From Balamuthia mandrillaris (taxonomy: Eukaryota; Discosea; Longamoebia; Balamuthiidae): a stretch of 64,000 nt of DNA. Position 1 is the stretch's first letter. The number at the start of each line of letters is the position of its first letter. The DNA is taken from the NCBI GenBank assembly GCA_031835245.1, contig JAVKOQ010000164.1, positions 58,789 to 122,788 of the forward strand. Direction: 5' to 3'. Of this stretch, positions 20,252 to 42,151 are shown one piece after another. Made by a program: the position numbers and the translations under genes. Under the pieces are notes generated by a model. It was not told the DNA's origin, did no database searches, and worked only from the letters and a program-made list of their open reading frames with translations.

Positions 20252-21547
20252 TCAGAGGTTTTGCCACCAGTCGTGCAAGCCGTAAGTATCCAACGCATCA
20301 TTGAAGATGAACCACCAAACGGAGGCCACGTCCTTGGGCACCTGCATGATAGGCACATCCCTGGCCTCTCCCTTGTTCCTCACTGCGTTCTCTCCCAACC
20401 ACAGCTTGTACTCCTTGCCCCCGGCCATGTGGAAGAGGCGCATCGGATGGAAGGCCTGCCGTCGCACGTTGTAGGCGTAGGGCAACCACCGCAGGCCTTG
20501 CGAGGGCCGGTCAAAGAATCGACGAAGGTACGGCTGGTCCGGCAGGCATCCAGCGGTGGCGAACAAGCCCTGCCACTCCCGGATGAGCTCCTGGGAGGTC
20601 TTGCTGGAAGGACGCAGCACCAACAAGCCCGAGTTGATGCTGTTGTGCCGACTGCCAGGAGGATCGAAATGAGCGGCGTAGATCTGACCGTGAGGCAAAG
20701 GCAGGTGGAAGAGCTCATCGATGTTGTCCAAGAGCATGATGTCGCAGTCCACATAGATCAGCCGGTCGTAGTCGATGAGGTTCCACACGTGGAAGCGCAT
20801 GTGCTCTCCTGGGAATTTGGCCGTTGGATCCGTGGGTCGTCCGCCTTGGTGCTGACAATCCAAGGGAGGCCGTTCCAGCACCTGCCAACCGGCCCGGGCG
20901 AGGGCTTCTCTGGACTGCTCGCTGACCTCCTCGCTGACGATGGCCAAGAGGTTGTCCGCGTGGCAGGAGAACTTGCGGATGGAGTGGGCCAAAGCCACGG
21001 CCGGAATGACGTAGGCATCGTTGATGGTGGCCGTCACCCATCCCACCTTTTCGTAGAGCGTTGATGCCTCGGAGCAGCAGAAGAGGTGGGAGTGGTGCCA
21101 GAGGAAGCGTCGGTGCTTGTACTCGGACAGGGCCATCACCGTTTGGAGGTCCTGCAGCTCGGCCTGGTAGAAGGCGGTCATGTTTTCGTTGAAGGCCTTG
21201 TTTTGTGCCACCGTGACGGTCGAAAACGACTTGACGTCGAGCGTCCGGTTCGCAACGTGGGAGAACCGAAAGGTTTGCTTTATGTCCTCATCGCCGGAGT
21301 TGAAAGCGGGGAAGGGACAGCCTTGAAGGAGGCTACCTCCTCCTTGCCGGTCCGCCGTCGTCGGATTCTCCGCTGTCAAAGGGGCCTCCCTGTGCGTTTG
21401 TCTTTGCAGAAGCTCGCAGTTTCTGGCCTCGCTGGACAGGCTGGACCTGGCCGAAAAGAGAAACACCCAGTTGGCTGCGAGGGAGAGTCCCAAAAGCACC
21501 AGCAGCACTCTGTTCGGGCGGCCCAGTGCTCGGTGGAACTGTTCCAT
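20252..21547 (-). CDS. GT8-family glycosyltransferase, type II membrane protein (copy 1)
   Basis: Intronless, 431 aa. A short basic N-terminus, one signal anchor (VLLVLLGLSLAANWVFLF), a variable stem, then a GT8 catalytic domain: VTATINDAYVIPAVALAHSI, the metal-binding DCD in IYVDCDIMLLDNIDE, NSGLLVLRPS and the C-terminal LFHMAG...WW. This fits the glycogenin/GUX/IPUT-like branch of GT8, retaining Mn and UDP-sugar sites; donor and acceptor cannot be read. One of four paralogs in 20 kb and closest at DNA level to the copy at 30399. Confidence 0.9.
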   Translation of the reverse strand: MEQFHRALGRPNRVLLVLLGLSLAANWVFLFSARSSLSSEARNCELLQRQTHREAPLTAENPTTADRQGGGSLLQGCPFPAFNSGDEDIKQTFRFSHVANRTLDVKSFSTVTVAQNKAFNENMTAFYQAELQDLQTVMALSEYKHRRFLWHHSHLFCCSEASTLYEKVGWVTATINDAYVIPAVALAHSIRKFSCHADNLLAIVSEEVSEQSREALARAGWQVLERPPLDCQHQGGRPTDPTAKFPGEHMRFHVWNLIDYDRLIYVDCDIMLLDNIDELFHLPLPHGQIYAAHFDPPGSRHNSINSGLLVLRPSSKTSQELIREWQGLFATAGCLPDQPYLRRFFDRPSQGLRWLPYAYNVRRQAFHPMRLFHMAGGKEYKLWLGENAVRNKGEARDVPIMQVPKDVASVWWFIFNDALDTYGLHDWWQNL

Positions 21548-22076
21548 TCCCCAGTCTTATCTGTGTTGTTTCTTCTTTACAACACGTTAATTAATAATGC
21601 ATCTTCGTGTCGTCATGCCAAGCTCTTGCTAACAACAACTGACTTCGCTTTTCTCTTCTCGAGCGGTATGGCGCCTGTTTGTTAACACACCACGTGGCCA
21701 CGGGTTGGTTTTCACGAAACCGCGCAACGACGAGAGGCCTGCACCATTCCCGAAAGCTCTTTCGCTCGTCTTTTTCAATGTGGCTTTGTTTTCTTTTCTG
21801 CAGGCTCTTTTTGTGTTGTTTGCCTTGTGCCATCGCGCCAGCGTTGTAGGGTGTACTGCACATCAACCCCCCCCCCCCCCTTTTCTAGACGGAACAAAAC
21901 GAGCAGAGGGCCAACGCCGTGTTCCCCCCTCCCTCCCCCCTCCAATCCAGCCGCAAGCAGAGCTCTGCATTTCTTCCTTCGTGACGGAAGGACGTCCGAT
22001 CACCGAGATCATCTCCTTTTTAGGATATTTGTCGACATTACACGTCACCCGGACAAGAAGAAAAAAAAAAAAAAAA
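21548..22076. promoter_or_regulatory. GT8 copy 1 upstream region
   Basis: Holds TTAATTAATAA near 21588, the TCGTGTCGTCATG word at 21605-21617, a run of 13 C at about 21869-21881, and GATATTTGTCGACATT near 22024 just before the A-tract where the SINE inserted. No gene supported. Confidence 0.45.
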
Positions 22077-30178: not shown

Positions 30179-30398
30179 GATTCCGAATGGCGTCTTTCTT
30201 TTCTTTTCTCGTTTTTTTTCTTTCCTTTTCGTTTCGTTTTATTCCCTTTTTGGGTGTCGTGACGTCATTGTTTAATTAATTTATATGATTTATCAACCAA
30301 TCACTTGGAAGCTTTGAATTTGTAAGATCACATGACGTCATGTGATCTTCTTTTTCAATTAATTGAACGTCAAAAAAAGACAAAACAAGATAAAAGGA
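30179..30398. promoter_or_regulatory. Divergent promoter with 26-bp CRE palindrome
   Basis: Between the aminopeptidase and GT8 copy 2. A perfect 26-bp palindrome at 30324-30349 centres on TGACGTCA flanked by CACATG/CATGTG halves; a second TGACGTCA lies at 30260-30267 and a CCAAT word near 30295. TTAATTAAT words flank both sides. Confidence 0.65.
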
Positions 30399-31772
30399 AT
30401 GGCGGCCCGGCGGCTCTACCAGCGAGTGGGACGACCGAACCTGGTGCTCCTCCTGTTGTTGGTGGTCTCTCTCTTCTCCAACTGGGTCTTTTTCTTCTCA
30501 TCCTACCAAACCACCACGAAGCAAATCCGCCCCGTTCGCGACTCGCCATACTCCCGTCCACCACCGCTTACCTCCTCCTTTCCTCCTTCCTCTCCACCTC
30601 CTTCCTCTCCTCCTCCTCCTCGACCTGCTTCTGCTTCCTACAAAACGTGTGAAACGTTCAACTACATCGACGACGCGGAACTCGCCCAACGCATTCAATA
30701 CCACCTCTCCACAAGGAGCATCAAGAGCAACACGACGGAAGAAGAAGCACCAACAGACCTTATATCCGTCGCACAGAACAGGTTGAACCCCCCGGAAGAC
30801 GCCGAAGCCTTCCGTGAGGCGGAGCTCGAGGACCTTCACAAGATGATGGCCCTCACCGAGTACAATCACCGACGCTTCCTCTGGCGCAACTCGGAGCTCT
30901 TTTGCTGCCAGCAGGCCTATCCAAGCACGGGAGAAGGCGGCAAGGTGGGATGGGTGACGGCCACCATCAACGATGCCTACGTCATCCCGGCCGTGGCTTT
31001 GGCCCACTCCATCCACAAGTTCTCCTGCCACGCGGACAACCTCTTGGCCATCGTCAGTTATGAGGTGGGGCCTGAGTCCAGAGAAGCCCTCGCCCGGGCC
31101 GGTTGGCAGGTGCTGGAACGGCCTCCCTTGGATTGTCAGCACGAGGGAGCGCGAGCGCAGAACCAGTACGCGAGGTTCCCAGGAGAGCACATGCGCTTCC
31201 ACGTGTGGAACCTCACCGACTATGACCAGCTGATCTATGTGGACTGCGACATCATGCTCTTGGATAACCTGGACGAGCTCTTCCGCCTTCCGTTATCCGT
31301 CGGTCAGGTTTATGCCGCTCACTTTGGAGCTCCCGGGCACAACAAGAGAAGCATCAACTCGGGCTTGCTGGTGCTGCGTCCTTCCAGCAAGACGGCAAAG
31401 GACCTCATCAAAAACTGGCAAGGATTGTTCAAGAAGGAGGGATGCATTGCAGATCAGCCCTACCTCCACCGCTTCTTTGACAGACCCTCGCAAGGGCTGC
31501 GATGGTTGCCCTACGCCTACAACGTGCGAAGGCAGGCCTATCACCCCATGCGTCTCTTCCACATGGCCGGGGGAGAGGAGGCAAAGTTGTGGTTGGGAGG
31601 GAACGTGGTAAGGAGGAAGGAAGAAGCAAGAGACGTGCCTATCATGGAGGTGCCAAAGGATGCGGCCTCCGTGTGGTGGTTCATGTTTTACGATGCGTTG
31701 GATGCCTATGACTTGCATGCCTGGTGGCTCAACGCCCAACACACCGTCAAGAATTGGCACCGCAAGCTTTAA
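30399..31772 (+). CDS. GT8-family glycosyltransferase, type II membrane protein (copy 2)
   Basis: Intronless, 457 aa; the ATG at 30399 (MAARRLYQRVGRPN) aligns with the start of copy 1. Signal anchor (LLLLLVVSLFSNWVFFF), Pro/Ser-rich stem, then the same catalytic core with DCD in YVDCDIMLLDNLDE. The stem is unrelated to that of copies 3 and 4. The stop codon abuts the left inverted terminus of the foldback element. Confidence 0.9.
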   Translation: MAARRLYQRVGRPNLVLLLLLVVSLFSNWVFFFSSYQTTTKQIRPVRDSPYSRPPPLTSSFPPSSPPPSSPPPPRPASASYKTCETFNYIDDAELAQRIQYHLSTRSIKSNTTEEEAPTDLISVAQNRLNPPEDAEAFREAELEDLHKMMALTEYNHRRFLWRNSELFCCQQAYPSTGEGGKVGWVTATINDAYVIPAVALAHSIHKFSCHADNLLAIVSYEVGPESREALARAGWQVLERPPLDCQHEGARAQNQYARFPGEHMRFHVWNLTDYDQLIYVDCDIMLLDNLDELFRLPLSVGQVYAAHFGAPGHNKRSINSGLLVLRPSSKTAKDLIKNWQGLFKKEGCIADQPYLHRFFDRPSQGLRWLPYAYNVRRQAYHPMRLFHMAGGEEAKLWLGGNVVRRKEEARDVPIMEVPKDAASVWWFMFYDALDAYDLHAWWLNAQHTVKNWHRKL

Positions 31773-36349: not shown

Positions 36350-36505
36350 TTGCAACTGTTATATAATTGGTTGGCGATTAATTATTAAATTAACTCTTCT
36401 CATCTACGCTTTCCTTTCAAGCATTTCTCCGATCCAGCATTACCCGCAGTTGCTGAGACTGTGGCGAAAACGAAAAGGAAGACGAAGAGCACAATAAACG
36501 TAGCA

Positions 36506-37879
36506 ATGGTGTTGACCGCGCTGGACAGGATGATAGGACGGCCTCACAAGGGCTTGCTGCTCCTTCTTTCCCTCTCCCTTTTTTTCAATTGGTATTTTTT
36601 CTTTCTTTCTCCGCAGCCCTCGCCGCGCGGTACCTACCAGCAACTACAAGGCTCCGCTCTCAGAGAAACCCTGGAGTCTTCAGCTTCTCCTTCTGCCGTC
36701 GTCTCCAACGAACAGGTAGAACGACCAGCTGGGACCGAAAAATGTATCCAGGACAATAAACAGGTTTGCGAGGCTAACACGAAAACCATTTCTTACGACG
36801 GTTTTGACCTCCGTTATGGCCACATTGCAACAAAAACCTTGCAAGGAGAAGGAGAGGCCTTGACCACGGCCAACAACAAAAACTTTCCGGAGGACCCTGA
36901 AGCATTCCGCGAAGCGGAGCTCAAAGACCTCCAAACGATGATGGCCTTCACCGACTTTCAGCACCGACGCTTCCTCTGGCACAACTCTGAGCGTTTCTGT
37001 CGGCAACGGTTTCCGCTGAACCCAACTGATAAAGAAGGCAAGGTGGGGTGGGTGACGGCCACCATCAACGATGCCTACGTCATCCCAGCCATAGCTCTGG
37101 CCCACTCCATCCGCAAGTTCTCCTGCTTGACCGACAACCTCTTGGCCATCATCAGCTCGGAGGTCAGCAAGGAGGCCAGAGAGGTCCTCACCAAGGCTGG
37201 TTGGACGCTGCTGGAACGACCTCCCTTGGATTGCCAGCATCAAGGTGGTCGGCCTGATGGCGCGTTAGCCAAGTTCCCAGGAGAGCACATGCGCTTCCAC
37301 GTGTGGAACCTCACAGAGTATGACCGATTGGTCTACCTCGACTGTGACATCATGCTCTTGGACAACATCGACGAGATTTTCCACCTGCCTTTGGAGCTTG
37401 GACAAATATATGCCGCTCACTTTGCACCTCCCGACGACAAGCACGAGTTGAAGACAGGCATCAACTCGGGCCTGTTGGTGCTGCGCCCATCGAGCCAGAT
37501 CACAAGCGAGCTACTGCAAGACTGGCGGTCTCTGTTCAAAACAGCGGGCTGCATGGCGGACCAGCCCTTCCTTCGCAGGTTCTTCGACCAACCTAGACGA
37601 GGGCTGCGGTACCTGCCTTATGCCTACAACGTGCGACGGAACGCCTATCACCCCATGCGCCTGTTTCACATGGCTGGCTTCACAAAGTTTGAAAAGCTAT
37701 GGTTGGGCAGCAACGTGGTGAGCAGGAAAAAAGCAGCAGACAAGCCGATCCAGAACGTGCCAGCAGACGTGGCATCCGTCTGGTGGTTCATGTTTTACGA
37801 TGCTTTGGATGCCTATGGCCTGCAGGACTGGTGGGCAAAGGTTGCATCAAAGGCCACCTCCCAATGGGGGCGCAACTGA
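36506..37879 (+). CDS. GT8-family glycosyltransferase, type II membrane protein (copy 3)
   Basis: Intronless, 457 aa from the ATG at 36506; an upstream GTG in frame is not used. Anchor (GLLLLLSLSLFFNWYFFFLS), its own stem with Cys residues, then the GT8 core with DCD in YLDCDIMLLDNIDEIF. Two blocks of the core (37043-37240 and 37272-37375) are base-for-base identical to copy 4 although the stems differ, which indicates gene conversion. Confidence 0.9.
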   Translation: MVLTALDRMIGRPHKGLLLLLSLSLFFNWYFFFLSPQPSPRGTYQQLQGSALRETLESSASPSAVVSNEQVERPAGTEKCIQDNKQVCEANTKTISYDGFDLRYGHIATKTLQGEGEALTTANNKNFPEDPEAFREAELKDLQTMMAFTDFQHRRFLWHNSERFCRQRFPLNPTDKEGKVGWVTATINDAYVIPAIALAHSIRKFSCLTDNLLAIISSEVSKEAREVLTKAGWTLLERPPLDCQHQGGRPDGALAKFPGEHMRFHVWNLTEYDRLVYLDCDIMLLDNIDEIFHLPLELGQIYAAHFAPPDDKHELKTGINSGLLVLRPSSQITSELLQDWRSLFKTAGCMADQPFLRRFFDQPRRGLRYLPYAYNVRRNAYHPMRLFHMAGFTKFEKLWLGSNVVSRKKAADKPIQNVPADVASVWWFMFYDALDAYGLQDWWAKVASKATSQWGRN

Positions 37880-38211: not shown

Positions 38212-38260
38212 TAAAAGGGTTGTTATCGGAGAAGCAAACGTTTGCTAAGCGAGCAAGATA

Positions 38261-39799
38261 ATGCTCCACCTGGTGGCACTCTACCGGAGGACAGAACGAA
38301 GCCACTTGGTCCTGCTGTTCCTTCTTGCCCTCTCCGTTGTTTATAATTGGTATTTTTTCGTTTCTTTCCGGCAGTCGAACAACCCACTTCAGCAGACTCA
38401 ACTCGGGTCTTCTCTCCCTTCTGAACTTTCGTCTTCATCGTTTCTTTCCTCCACCACCCTAACCAACAGCGTGAAGAGCGGGGTCTCTCTTCAGCGGCCT
38501 GGGGGGCCTCTGGACTCTGCTCTCCAATCTGAGCCAGCTATTGGCAGCTCCACCATCGTTCAGAAGAAACGAGAAAAAGATGAAAACCAAGAAGAACAGT
38601 CTCCCTCTATTGGCAGTAAGACACAAAGAAAGATTGAACATTGTTACCACGATGTCTCCACTAGAACAATGAAATGTTACTATGTTGATGAAAAGAAGGA
38701 GCCCTCCTTTCATTACGCTCACCTCCCCAACAAGAGCAAAGGGGCAAAAGGGCAGGCCGTCTTGTCCGCTGCAGACAATGATGGCTTCGAGGAGGATCCC
38801 ACTGCCTTTCACATTGCTGAAAGGAACGACCTCTACAGGATGATGGCCTTCACCGAGTTCGAGCACCGACGCTTTCTCTGGCACAACTCCCAGCTCTACT
38901 GCCAACAGCGTCTCCACTACGATGATACTGAACTACTAGCGAAAGTGGAAGGCAAAGTGGGGTGGGTGACGGCCACCATCAACGATGCCTACGTCATCCC
39001 AGCCATAGCTCTGGCCCACTCCATCCGCAAGTTCTCCTGCTTGACCGACAACCTCTTGGCCATCATCAGCTCGGAGGTCAGCAAGGAGGCCAGAGAGGTC
39101 CTCACCAAGGCTGGTTGGACGCTGCTGGAACGACCTCCCTTGGATTGCCAGCATGAAGCAGCTCAACCTGACTCCCTCTTGGCGCAGTTCCCAGGAGAGC
39201 ACATGCGCTTCCACGTGTGGAACCTCACAGAGTATGACCGATTGGTCTACCTCGACTGTGACATCATGCTCTTGGACAACATCGACGAGCTCTTCCGCCT
39301 TCCATTGCAGCCTCATCAGATATACGCTGCTCGCTTTTCTCCTCCGGCGGACGACGACAAAGGATCCGAGATGAAGACCTTTGTTAATTCAGGGTTGTTG
39401 GTGCTGCGTCCATCAAGCCAGACCACGGGCGAGCTTTTGGCCGATTGGAGGTCCATGTTCCGCACGAAAGGTTGCGTGGCGGACCAGCCCTTCCTTCGCA
39501 AGTTCTTCGACCAACCAGAACGAGGGCTGCGGTACCTGCCTTATGCCTACAACGTGCGACGGAAGGCCTATCACCCCATGCGCCTGTTTCACATGGCTTC
39601 CTCCACAAAGTTTGAAAAGCTATGGTTGAGCCACAACAAGGCGGACAGGAAGACGGCTAGGGACAAACCCATTGAGAACATACCGAAAGACGCGGCTTCG
39701 GTCTGGTGGTTCATGTTTTACGATGCTTTGGATGTTCATGGATTGAATGAGTGGTGGGCAAAGGTCGAGAAAAACAATGGTGTGTTTCAGCGTTTCTGA
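38261..39799 (+). CDS. GT8-family glycosyltransferase, type II membrane protein (copy 4)
   Basis: Intronless, 512 aa, the longest stem of the four (about residues 45-200). Anchor (LVLLFLLALSVVYNWYFFVSF), then the same GT8 core with DCD in YLDCDIMLLDNIDELF and the WWFMFYDALDVHG end. The stem carries Lys/Glu-rich and Cys-containing stretches unlike copies 1-3. Tandem with copy 3. Confidence 0.9.
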   Translation: MLHLVALYRRTERSHLVLLFLLALSVVYNWYFFVSFRQSNNPLQQTQLGSSLPSELSSSSFLSSTTLTNSVKSGVSLQRPGGPLDSALQSEPAIGSSTIVQKKREKDENQEEQSPSIGSKTQRKIEHCYHDVSTRTMKCYYVDEKKEPSFHYAHLPNKSKGAKGQAVLSAADNDGFEEDPTAFHIAERNDLYRMMAFTEFEHRRFLWHNSQLYCQQRLHYDDTELLAKVEGKVGWVTATINDAYVIPAIALAHSIRKFSCLTDNLLAIISSEVSKEAREVLTKAGWTLLERPPLDCQHEAAQPDSLLAQFPGEHMRFHVWNLTEYDRLVYLDCDIMLLDNIDELFRLPLQPHQIYAARFSPPADDDKGSEMKTFVNSGLLVLRPSSQTTGELLADWRSMFRTKGCVADQPFLRKFFDQPERGLRYLPYAYNVRRKAYHPMRLFHMASSTKFEKLWLSHNKADRKTARDKPIENIPKDAASVWWFMFYDALDVHGLNEWWAKVEKNNGVFQRF

Positions 39800-39880: not shown

Positions 39881-40245
39881 TTAGAGGGCAGAGGGAGATG
39901 CTCCTTCGGACAAACGAAGCACGCATTCAGTACCGGGATACGGAGGCAGATTCAGCTGATACTTTTCTTCCATACTCCTTTCGTAGGTGCAAGTATCGAT
40001 GGAAGAATAAAGAAAGACACGCGTCAAAATTGAAACAACATTCTCCCTGAGAAGGAACAGAAAAAAAGAGAAAAAAACAGATTTGAAACAACAAAAAGAA
40101 AAAATAGAAAGTACTTTGGAATGAACCGGCCACCAAGCCAATGCTCTCCGTGGAAATGCTTCGCACAAAGCTTTGGTGCTGTGAGTGAGACTGAAAGTTT
40201 TGTAAAGCAGAGTAGTAACGCGAGAGTCAGACACTGCACATTAGT

Positions 40246-40284
<39 letters not shown>

Positions 40285-41114
40285 GAGAGGAGAATGAGCA
40301 AAGATGTAATGATTTATGTACCAAGCATGGCTGGAGGAGGAATTCCTAAGCCGTTAATGTTTCCTGTTGTTGGTTGCAAGATACGCATAACAGAAAATGT
40401 TATGTGCTGACGCAATAGAGATTTGAAGGAAAACAAAAGAAAGTAATGTAGTGGAAAACACGTATCAAACAACAAAATAAGGGAATGAAATACAAAAAGA
40501 AGAACCTTCTTCAACGTCCCACCCAGACGGAATATCAACAGAGATAATAGGGACTTTAGTATTCTTCAGCGTCTATTTCAGAGGGAAAATAAGAAGTTAG
40601 ATGGGTTTTTAGGTTCGCAGGTGGGAAATCAGTGCCTCGATGATACTATCAAACGGAGCACGAATGGAAGTGCCTTTGAAACTAAAGCCAAAGATGGCAT
40701 CCATGATGACGTCGAAGTCTTTTTCGTAGTCATACGACCTCAGTTCTTGTAAGACTGGAATAGAAAGAGCTTTGCATTGCTTCACCAATCCCTATGGTGT
40801 TTTTTTTCAGTCTTAACACCAAATAAACGAAGAAAGAAAAAAAACAACAACAAGAAGAACACGAAGGTCAGAAAATTACTTGAAAGAGAGGCTTATCGAT
40901 TGGTTTGGGATAAAGGATGGTGGGTTGGAAGCCAAAATGCGCCAAATGCCGAGCTGCAACAAAGCCTTTTTGAATGCAGTCAGCACAAAACAATTGGGAA
41001 CAACGTTTAAGTAGACAACGAAAGGCATTACCATCTCCACCAGTACATTGAAGAGGACGCTCTTGTTAAGGAAAGCTGAAGAGAGGAAGGGAGGAGGGGG
41101 GAGAGAGAGAGGAG

Positions 41115-41152
<38 letters not shown>

Positions 41153-41728
41153 AACTGACTGACTGATTGACTGTGAGGGAGGAGAGGGAGGGAGGGAGGG
41201 AGGGAGGGGAGGGAGGAGGAGGGAGGAGGGAGGGAGGGAGGGAGGGAGGGAGGGAGGAGGAGGGAGGGAGGAGAGGGAGGGAGGAGGGAGGGAGGGAGGG
41301 AGGGAGGGAGGGAGGAGGGGAGGGGAGGGAGGGGGGGGAGGGAGGGAGGGAGGGAGAGAGGGAGGAGGGAGGGAGGGAGGGGAGGGAGGGAGGGAGGGAG
41401 GGGGAGGGGGAGGGAGGGAGGGAGGGAGGGAGGGAGGGAGGGGGAGGGAGGGAGGAGGGAGGAGGAAGGGAGGGAGGGAGGGAGGGAGGGAGGGAGGGGG
41501 GAGGGAGGGGAGAGGGGAGGGAGGAGGGAGAGGGAGGAGAGGAGAAGGTAGGATGACATGAAAGAAAGGATATTTGTTGCCAGGCCCAGCGATCACAAGA
41601 ACACGGTGGTGGTTAGGGAACGCCTTAGCGGTAGCCGTGGCAACAGACAAGCCAGCTAACTCCATCAACTTTGGTATAGCATTACCACAGCAAGAACAGG
41701 AGAACGAGAGGGGATGAGAGAAACAGAG

Positions 41729-41769
<41 letters not shown>

Positions 41770-42151
41770 GAGAGGATACAATGCCTGTTCAACAACAAAG
41801 CCATGCTCTTCGCCCATCAGCTCATTATCAATGTTGGCAGCCTCTTCTTGGCCAAGGTACTACATGCACATCCGTCACTGCCATTAGTACAAAGGAGGCC
41901 AAACTCGCCGAACAACAAAAGCAAAAAGGGGGGGAGAGACGAAAGAAAACTTTTATAGAAGCAGTGGCAGAGGATGACATTGCTCGAGTGTAGGAGCGAT
42001 CTGGTTCGGACAGGAAGCCCCAGCGAAATGCAACCACTTGCTGCTTGGTGAGGATGGCTATGATTCGCAAGTCTACTCGCGCCCCGCAAGGTGAATGTAC
42101 CACCACAAGTCTTGTTGTTGAACGAAGAAGAAGAGAACGGCTTGCGAGCAA
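39881..42151 (-). CDS. NAXE: NAD(P)H-hydrate epimerase (AIBP/NAXE, YjeF N-terminal fold) with AT-AC intron
   Basis: Ten exons (42151-41951, 41859-41785, 41668-41574, 41042-41032, 40965-40880, 40791-40636, 40572-40506, 40363-40322, 40190-40115, 39977-39881) give 301 aa, close to the metazoan enzyme. It epimerises damaged R-NAD(P)HX for repair. Exon 1 looks like a mitochondrial targeting sequence (MLASRSLLLRSTTRL). Hallmarks: YLGQEEA, QLMELAGLS, GPGNNGGDG, ARHLAHFGF, DAIFGFSFKG, VDIPSGWDVE, SLTAPKLCA, GGRFIPK and LPPYPGTECV. GPGNNGGDG is restored only by removing an intron that begins ATATCCTTTC and ends AC; the next exon is 11 nt. Two other introns have GC donors (41784 and 40635). Confidence 0.9.
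41043..41573 (-). other. U12-type AT-AC intron filled by a polypurine/polypyrimidine array
   Basis: Sense strand begins ATATCCTTTC, the minor-spliceosome 5' consensus, and ends ...TTCAATGTAC. TTCCTTAAC, the exact U12 branch-site consensus, lies about 25 bases before the end. Splicing gives AAC-AA plus T-GGT, restoring the family motif. The middle (about 41088-41550 on +) is GGGA/GGGAGGA repeats. Confidence 0.88.

Follow-up and report, generated by a model that had tools for sequence, protein, structure and literature searches.

A probable U12-type AT-AC intron followed by an 11-nt exon in the NAXE gene of Balamuthia mandrillaris

The NAXE gene of Balamuthia mandrillaris very probably (roughly 93%, judged from the DNA) contains a U12-type AT-AC intron, followed by an exon of 11 nt and then by a U2-type GT-AG intron. 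The evidence comprises the sequence and its reading frame, the fit of the product to homologues, the identity of the intron ends between two copies of the gene and genes for U11, U12 and U6atac in the genome, from which we infer that NAXE RNA is spliced in this manner and which RNA would do what. Since the AT-AC intron went unrecognised, it would show why two public NAXE models are without the core motif of the protein.

NAXE, encoding NAD(P)H-hydrate epimerase, is a metabolite-repair gene. Here it lies on the minus strand of a window of 64,000 nt, the whole stretch of DNA that was analysed. Its coding region (39881..41980) was modelled with ten exons and a 244-aa product, residues 4-236 of which match mouse AIBP (2dg2, the best PDB match, 271.8 bits); the spliced product matches Pfam YjeF_N with 129.9 bits and contains GPGNNGGDG. 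The identity proposed in the initial annotation was hence borne out. Exon 3 (41574..41668), with 3' letters GGCAACAA, ends with GPGN and the first two letters of the following codon (phase 2). The 531-nt AT-AC intron (41043..41573) starts with ATATCCTTTC and ends with GTAC. Exon 4 (41032..41042), which reads TGGTGGAGATG, completes the N codon and continues with GGD and one further base, after which a 66-nt GT-AG intron in phase 1 (40966..41031) leads to exon 5, starting at 40965; all of these are on the minus strand. Both the AT-AC intron with its minor-type 5' site, branch site and AC end, and the 11-nt exon with the normal intron behind it, had been proposed before; letters and coordinates were confirmed in the sequence, and the protein-level test described below agrees. 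Two other introns of the gene, also on the minus strand, have GC donors: that of intron 2 (41669-41784) is GC as well in the second copy of the gene, on contig C94, and that of intron 6 (40573-40635) is GT there, an exchange that supports the gene model. Intron 2 was considered as a U12-type candidate, GTATCCTC being found a few bases inside, and was rejected: no frame-keeping AG or AC acceptor was found by hand, and CAG/GC...AAAG fits. Elsewhere in the window four open frames match Glyco_transf_8 over cut-off, at 20255-21556 (minus) and at 30363-31769, 36389-37876 and 38249-39796 (plus); they resemble a local family of glycosyltransferases anchored in the membrane.

The 5' splice site of the AT-AC intron, ATATCCTTTC, occupies 41564..41573 and its branch site, TTCCTTAAC, 41065..41073, both on the minus strand. 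On the two strands of the window ATATCCTTT and TTCCTTAAC occur once apiece, each inside this intron; the Markov-1 expectation per strand is 0.17 and 0.33, respectively, and none of 100 Markov-1 simulations of one strand produced such a pair 40-700 nt apart. In both copies of NAXE ATATCCTTTC agrees with the 5' site pattern RTATCCTT and the branch site is an exact TTCCTTAAC match. The distance from the branch A to the intron end is 23 nt, and the AC used is the first one beyond the branch site. Between the signals lie a tandem array of 94 copies with unit GAGG on the plus strand, CCTC on the coding strand (41175..41542), and a dinucleotide array of 26 copies of GA, TC on the coding strand (41101..41150). 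The half-kilobase polypurine array that had been described inside the intron is therefore polypurine on the plus strand; on the coding strand it is polypyrimidine, and the C+T content of the intron is 94% in the window copy and 90% in the C94 copy. The treatment of U12-type introns in PMC3584512 gives 11-13 nt as the optimal distance from branch to 3' end and names the missing distinct polypyrimidine tract as characteristic, the type being defined by 5' and branch sites. The NAXE intron departs from this characteristic. Its pyrimidine content and, less clearly, its 23-nt branch distance count against a U12-type assignment.

The initial annotation had suggested searching the genome for the minor spliceosome. 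Such a search returned U6atac at two loci (84.3 and 83.2 bits; Rfam RF00619, cut-off 33, full model), U12 at two loci (80.0 and 79.5 bits) and U11 at two loci (62.6 bits each), all over cut-off, while each of these RNAs was matched in 0/14 control genomes. The U11-48K zinc finger PF05253, a domain of 25 residues only, was matched at two loci with 37.9 bits and in 1/14 controls. U4atac was not found. Three weak hits below the cut-off of its Rfam model proved to be U4 (98 bits), a pattern built on complementarity to U6atac gave 18 genome matches vs 18 in the control, and Rfam, with E up to 0.1, matched none of these 18 loci; the failure to find U4atac counts against the U12-type reading. An Rfam scan of the window itself gave nothing over cut-off; with E up to 1 there were seven weak matches to microRNA families. 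In nine out of nine snRNA loci (two U6atac, two U12, two U11, three U4) TCCCATAA precedes the RNA start by 61-70 bases; we take it for a common promoter element, which suggests that the genes are active. Computed duplex energies are -7.4 kcal/mol for U12 with the branch site and -6.2 kcal/mol for U11 with the 5' site. Intron and snRNA genes together suggest that Balamuthia has a functioning minor spliceosome, of which, as of U12-type introns in this organism, no description was found in the openly licensed literature.

In the proposed sequence of events U11 RNA would pair with ATATCCTTT and U12 RNA with TTCCTTAAC, leaving the branch A bulged out; following activation, the first AC past the branch site would be used, and the major spliceosome would then join the 11-nt exon to exon 5, restoring GPGNNGGDG. 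In AT-AC introns of the major class the 5' site resembles ATAAGT, which counts against removal of the NAXE AT-AC intron by the major spliceosome. That alternative, which has in its favour that AT-AC ends also occur outside the U12 type (part of PMC3584512), keeps a slim chance, as 5' and branch sites agree with the U12 type in every letter and U12-type RNAs are present.

Splicing was also evaluated at the protein level. A scan of 115 donor by 195 acceptor positions was performed ignoring dinucleotides, with the 66-nt intron both retained and spliced out when the acceptor lay upstream of 41032, giving 34,960 combinations. The 11,137 products with at least 120 aa before the first stop were scored using a profile of 118 NAXE homologues from which the two Balamuthia entries were left out. 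The AT-AC junction joining 41574 to 41042 ranked first of the 11,137 with 389.3 bits. In ranks 2-10 the intron measures 531 or 528 nt and the joint is moved by a few bases; none of these introns is GT-AG, GC-AG or AT-AC. GPGNNGGD is present in 118/118 homologues and GPGNNGGDG in 108/118. The earlier statement that only this splice restores GPGNNGGDG held for the exact motif among the best-ranked products listed; the looser GPGN.GGDG, with one residue changed, is kept by slides of 1-3 bases, the intron ends of which are non-canonical.

The two closest proteins are NCBI models of Balamuthia mandrillaris NAD(P)H-hydrate epimerase, P0001 and P0002. VLVIAGPGNN is absent from P0001, which reads the 66-nt intron as protein, and P0002 loses the frame around the 11-nt exon. 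Such models would have an ordinary GT-AG intron that ends in AACAAG just past the branch-site letters, and would treat the 66-nt stretch as coding; P0001 does just this, and the stretch is open in frame. Nevertheless, P0001 and P0002 score 342.5 and 285.1 bits against the homologue profile vs 389.3 for the AT-AC product, both are missing the GPGN of the core motif that all 118 homologues have, and the best GT-AG junction of the scan reaches 368.7 bits with an insert in its product, all of which makes a GT-AG intron in this place highly improbable.

The C94 copy of NAXE has 93% identity along a query of 591 bases, and the sequence 3' of the gene is common to both copies; for these reasons it is probably the other haplotype, a product of duplication being possible. 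Several genomic loci are present two or three times in nearly identical form, each on another contig, and because of this haplotypes may be kept apart in the 64.8 Mb assembly. In C94 the U12-type intron measures 344 nt, compared to 531 nt in the window. Its first 32 nt and its last 54 nt, the latter including the branch site, are identical between copies and the array between them differs; two copies with so different an interior show what such a U12-type intron keeps. Within the 66-nt intron the copies differ by indels 1 and 4 bases long, which fits a stretch that does not encode protein. This bears on the alternative that the AT-AC intron is right and the 66 nt are retained, with no 11-nt exon and 22 extra residues after GGDG. 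The stretch has no in-frame stop, as retention would need; against it stand not only these indels but also GT and AG ends in both copies and a score that drops to 370.9 bits (rank 226 of 11,137), so that retention has a very small probability. That the window gene is a decayed allele, made non-working by growth of an array that is indeed large and different between copies, is hardly credible given full-length 244-aa products from both copies, 13 synonymous and 6 non-synonymous changes among 19 differing codons, and identical intron ends.

Other U12-type introns were sought in the genome by pattern. ATATCCTTT..TTCCTTAAC has three matches, all one identical sequence, and 0 in the reversed control; the strict GT pattern GTATCCTTT..TTCCTTAAC has no genome match. 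The looser TATCCTT..TCCTTRAC has 23 matches vs 13 in the reversed control, a modest raw enrichment. Modest or absent enrichment of the looser patterns and the lack of a strict GT match count against the U12-type reading. A or G precedes TATCCTT in 22/23 of the pattern matches vs 8/25 occurrences of TATCCTT in a comparison set made up of the window plus 18 unrelated loci. Merging copies by eye left 16 distinct candidate loci from TATCCTT..TCCTTRAC, which with the one from ATATCCTTT..TTCCTTAAC makes 17. Among the 23 matches L028 has no purine in front of TATCCTT, and L035 with its copy L046 was read by eye as continuous coding sequence; these were rejected. Ten of the 17, picked by eye as protein-like, were spliced with the acceptor set to fit the protein. 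In seven of the ten (four AT-AC, three GT-AG) a Pfam domain over cut-off spans the junction: protein kinase (L029, L047), HAD hydrolase (L030), dual-specificity phosphatase (L034), Rap-GAP (L038), CLU (L032) and WD40 (L026). Such a domain is missing in the other three, where PH starts after the junction (L020), Sec39 is below cut-off (L036) or there is no match (L040).

The two U6atac genes (L001, 1501-1628, minus strand; L002, 1501-1629, plus strand) resemble Rfam RF00619 in that both exceed the cut-off with the full model, and differ from it in having GCC instead of the consensus AAG at bases 12-14, within the stretch that should base-pair with the 5' splice site; both read GAGCCGAGAGAAGG in place of consensus GAAAGGAGAGAAGG. 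Assembly error is unlikely because their first 104 bases are identical while 29 of 100 bases upstream differ. The core GAGAGAAGGTTAGC has 8 genome matches vs 2 in the control, and only the two U6atac genes continue as U6atac; a further U6atac gene with a different core is possible. Bases 12-16 of human U6atac pair with intron positions +4 to +8, and in this human register GCC abolishes pairing at +6 and +7. Taken over all registers, the strongest duplex with ATATCCTTTC has -4.1 kcal/mol for Balamuthia U6atac vs -8.2 kcal/mol for the consensus. The U11 pairing letters AAAAGGG are intact. If 5' sites had followed the change in U6atac, ATATCGG would be expected; ATATC..TTCCTTRAC has 30 genome matches vs 28 in the control, of which 9 continue with CTT and 0 with GG. 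As the raw count is about that of the control, chance may account for most of the 30, which leaves the excess of CTT as the one informative part. The 5' splice sites stay canonical alongside the altered U6atac, whose departure from the consensus in this segment counts against the U12-type reading. U6atac is described as displacing U11 and then pairing with the 5' site (PMC3584512 and PMC8199999, in part). Tentatively, and with somewhat less than even confidence, we suggest that the Balamuthia minor spliceosome may activate canonical ATATCCTT sites with a U6atac unable to form the usual helix. If true, the 5'-site consensus would be held mainly by U11, and handover to U6atac would proceed on few pairs; if the altered U6atac is used by the cell, the need for the helix between U6atac and 5' site could be tested by natural comparison among amoebae.

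U12-type introns are already known, also from Amoebozoa, and the NAXE intron is a further example; no report of a minor intron in NAXE was found in the openly licensed literature. U12-type introns usually adjoin major ones, and minor and major complexes interact across the intervening exon (according to part of PMC8034651), for which an exon of 11 nt would leave little room. In human U12-type AT-AC introns, as far as they are covered by the relevant part of PMC3584512, the letters of the 5' and branch sites and the AC end are like those of NAXE, which is unlike them in its 23-nt branch distance, very pyrimidine-rich interior and half-kilobase array. One survey classed twelve introns of Acanthamoeba as minor, none of them conserved in human or Protostelium under the survey filters; with these filters off, one position is common to human (PMC10639083). 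The few Acanthamoeba minor introns listed in a part of PMC2846911 have a C-rich region after the 5' site; NAXE is not mentioned in the parts of these two papers that were covered. Acanthamoeba castellanii is, like Balamuthia, an Amoebozoan with U12-type RNAs and few AT-AC and GT-AG minor introns, whereas just past the 5' site, where Acanthamoeba has its C-rich region, Balamuthia NAXE has ATATCCTTTCTTTCATGTCATCC instead (compared with parts of PMC2846911 and PMC10639083).
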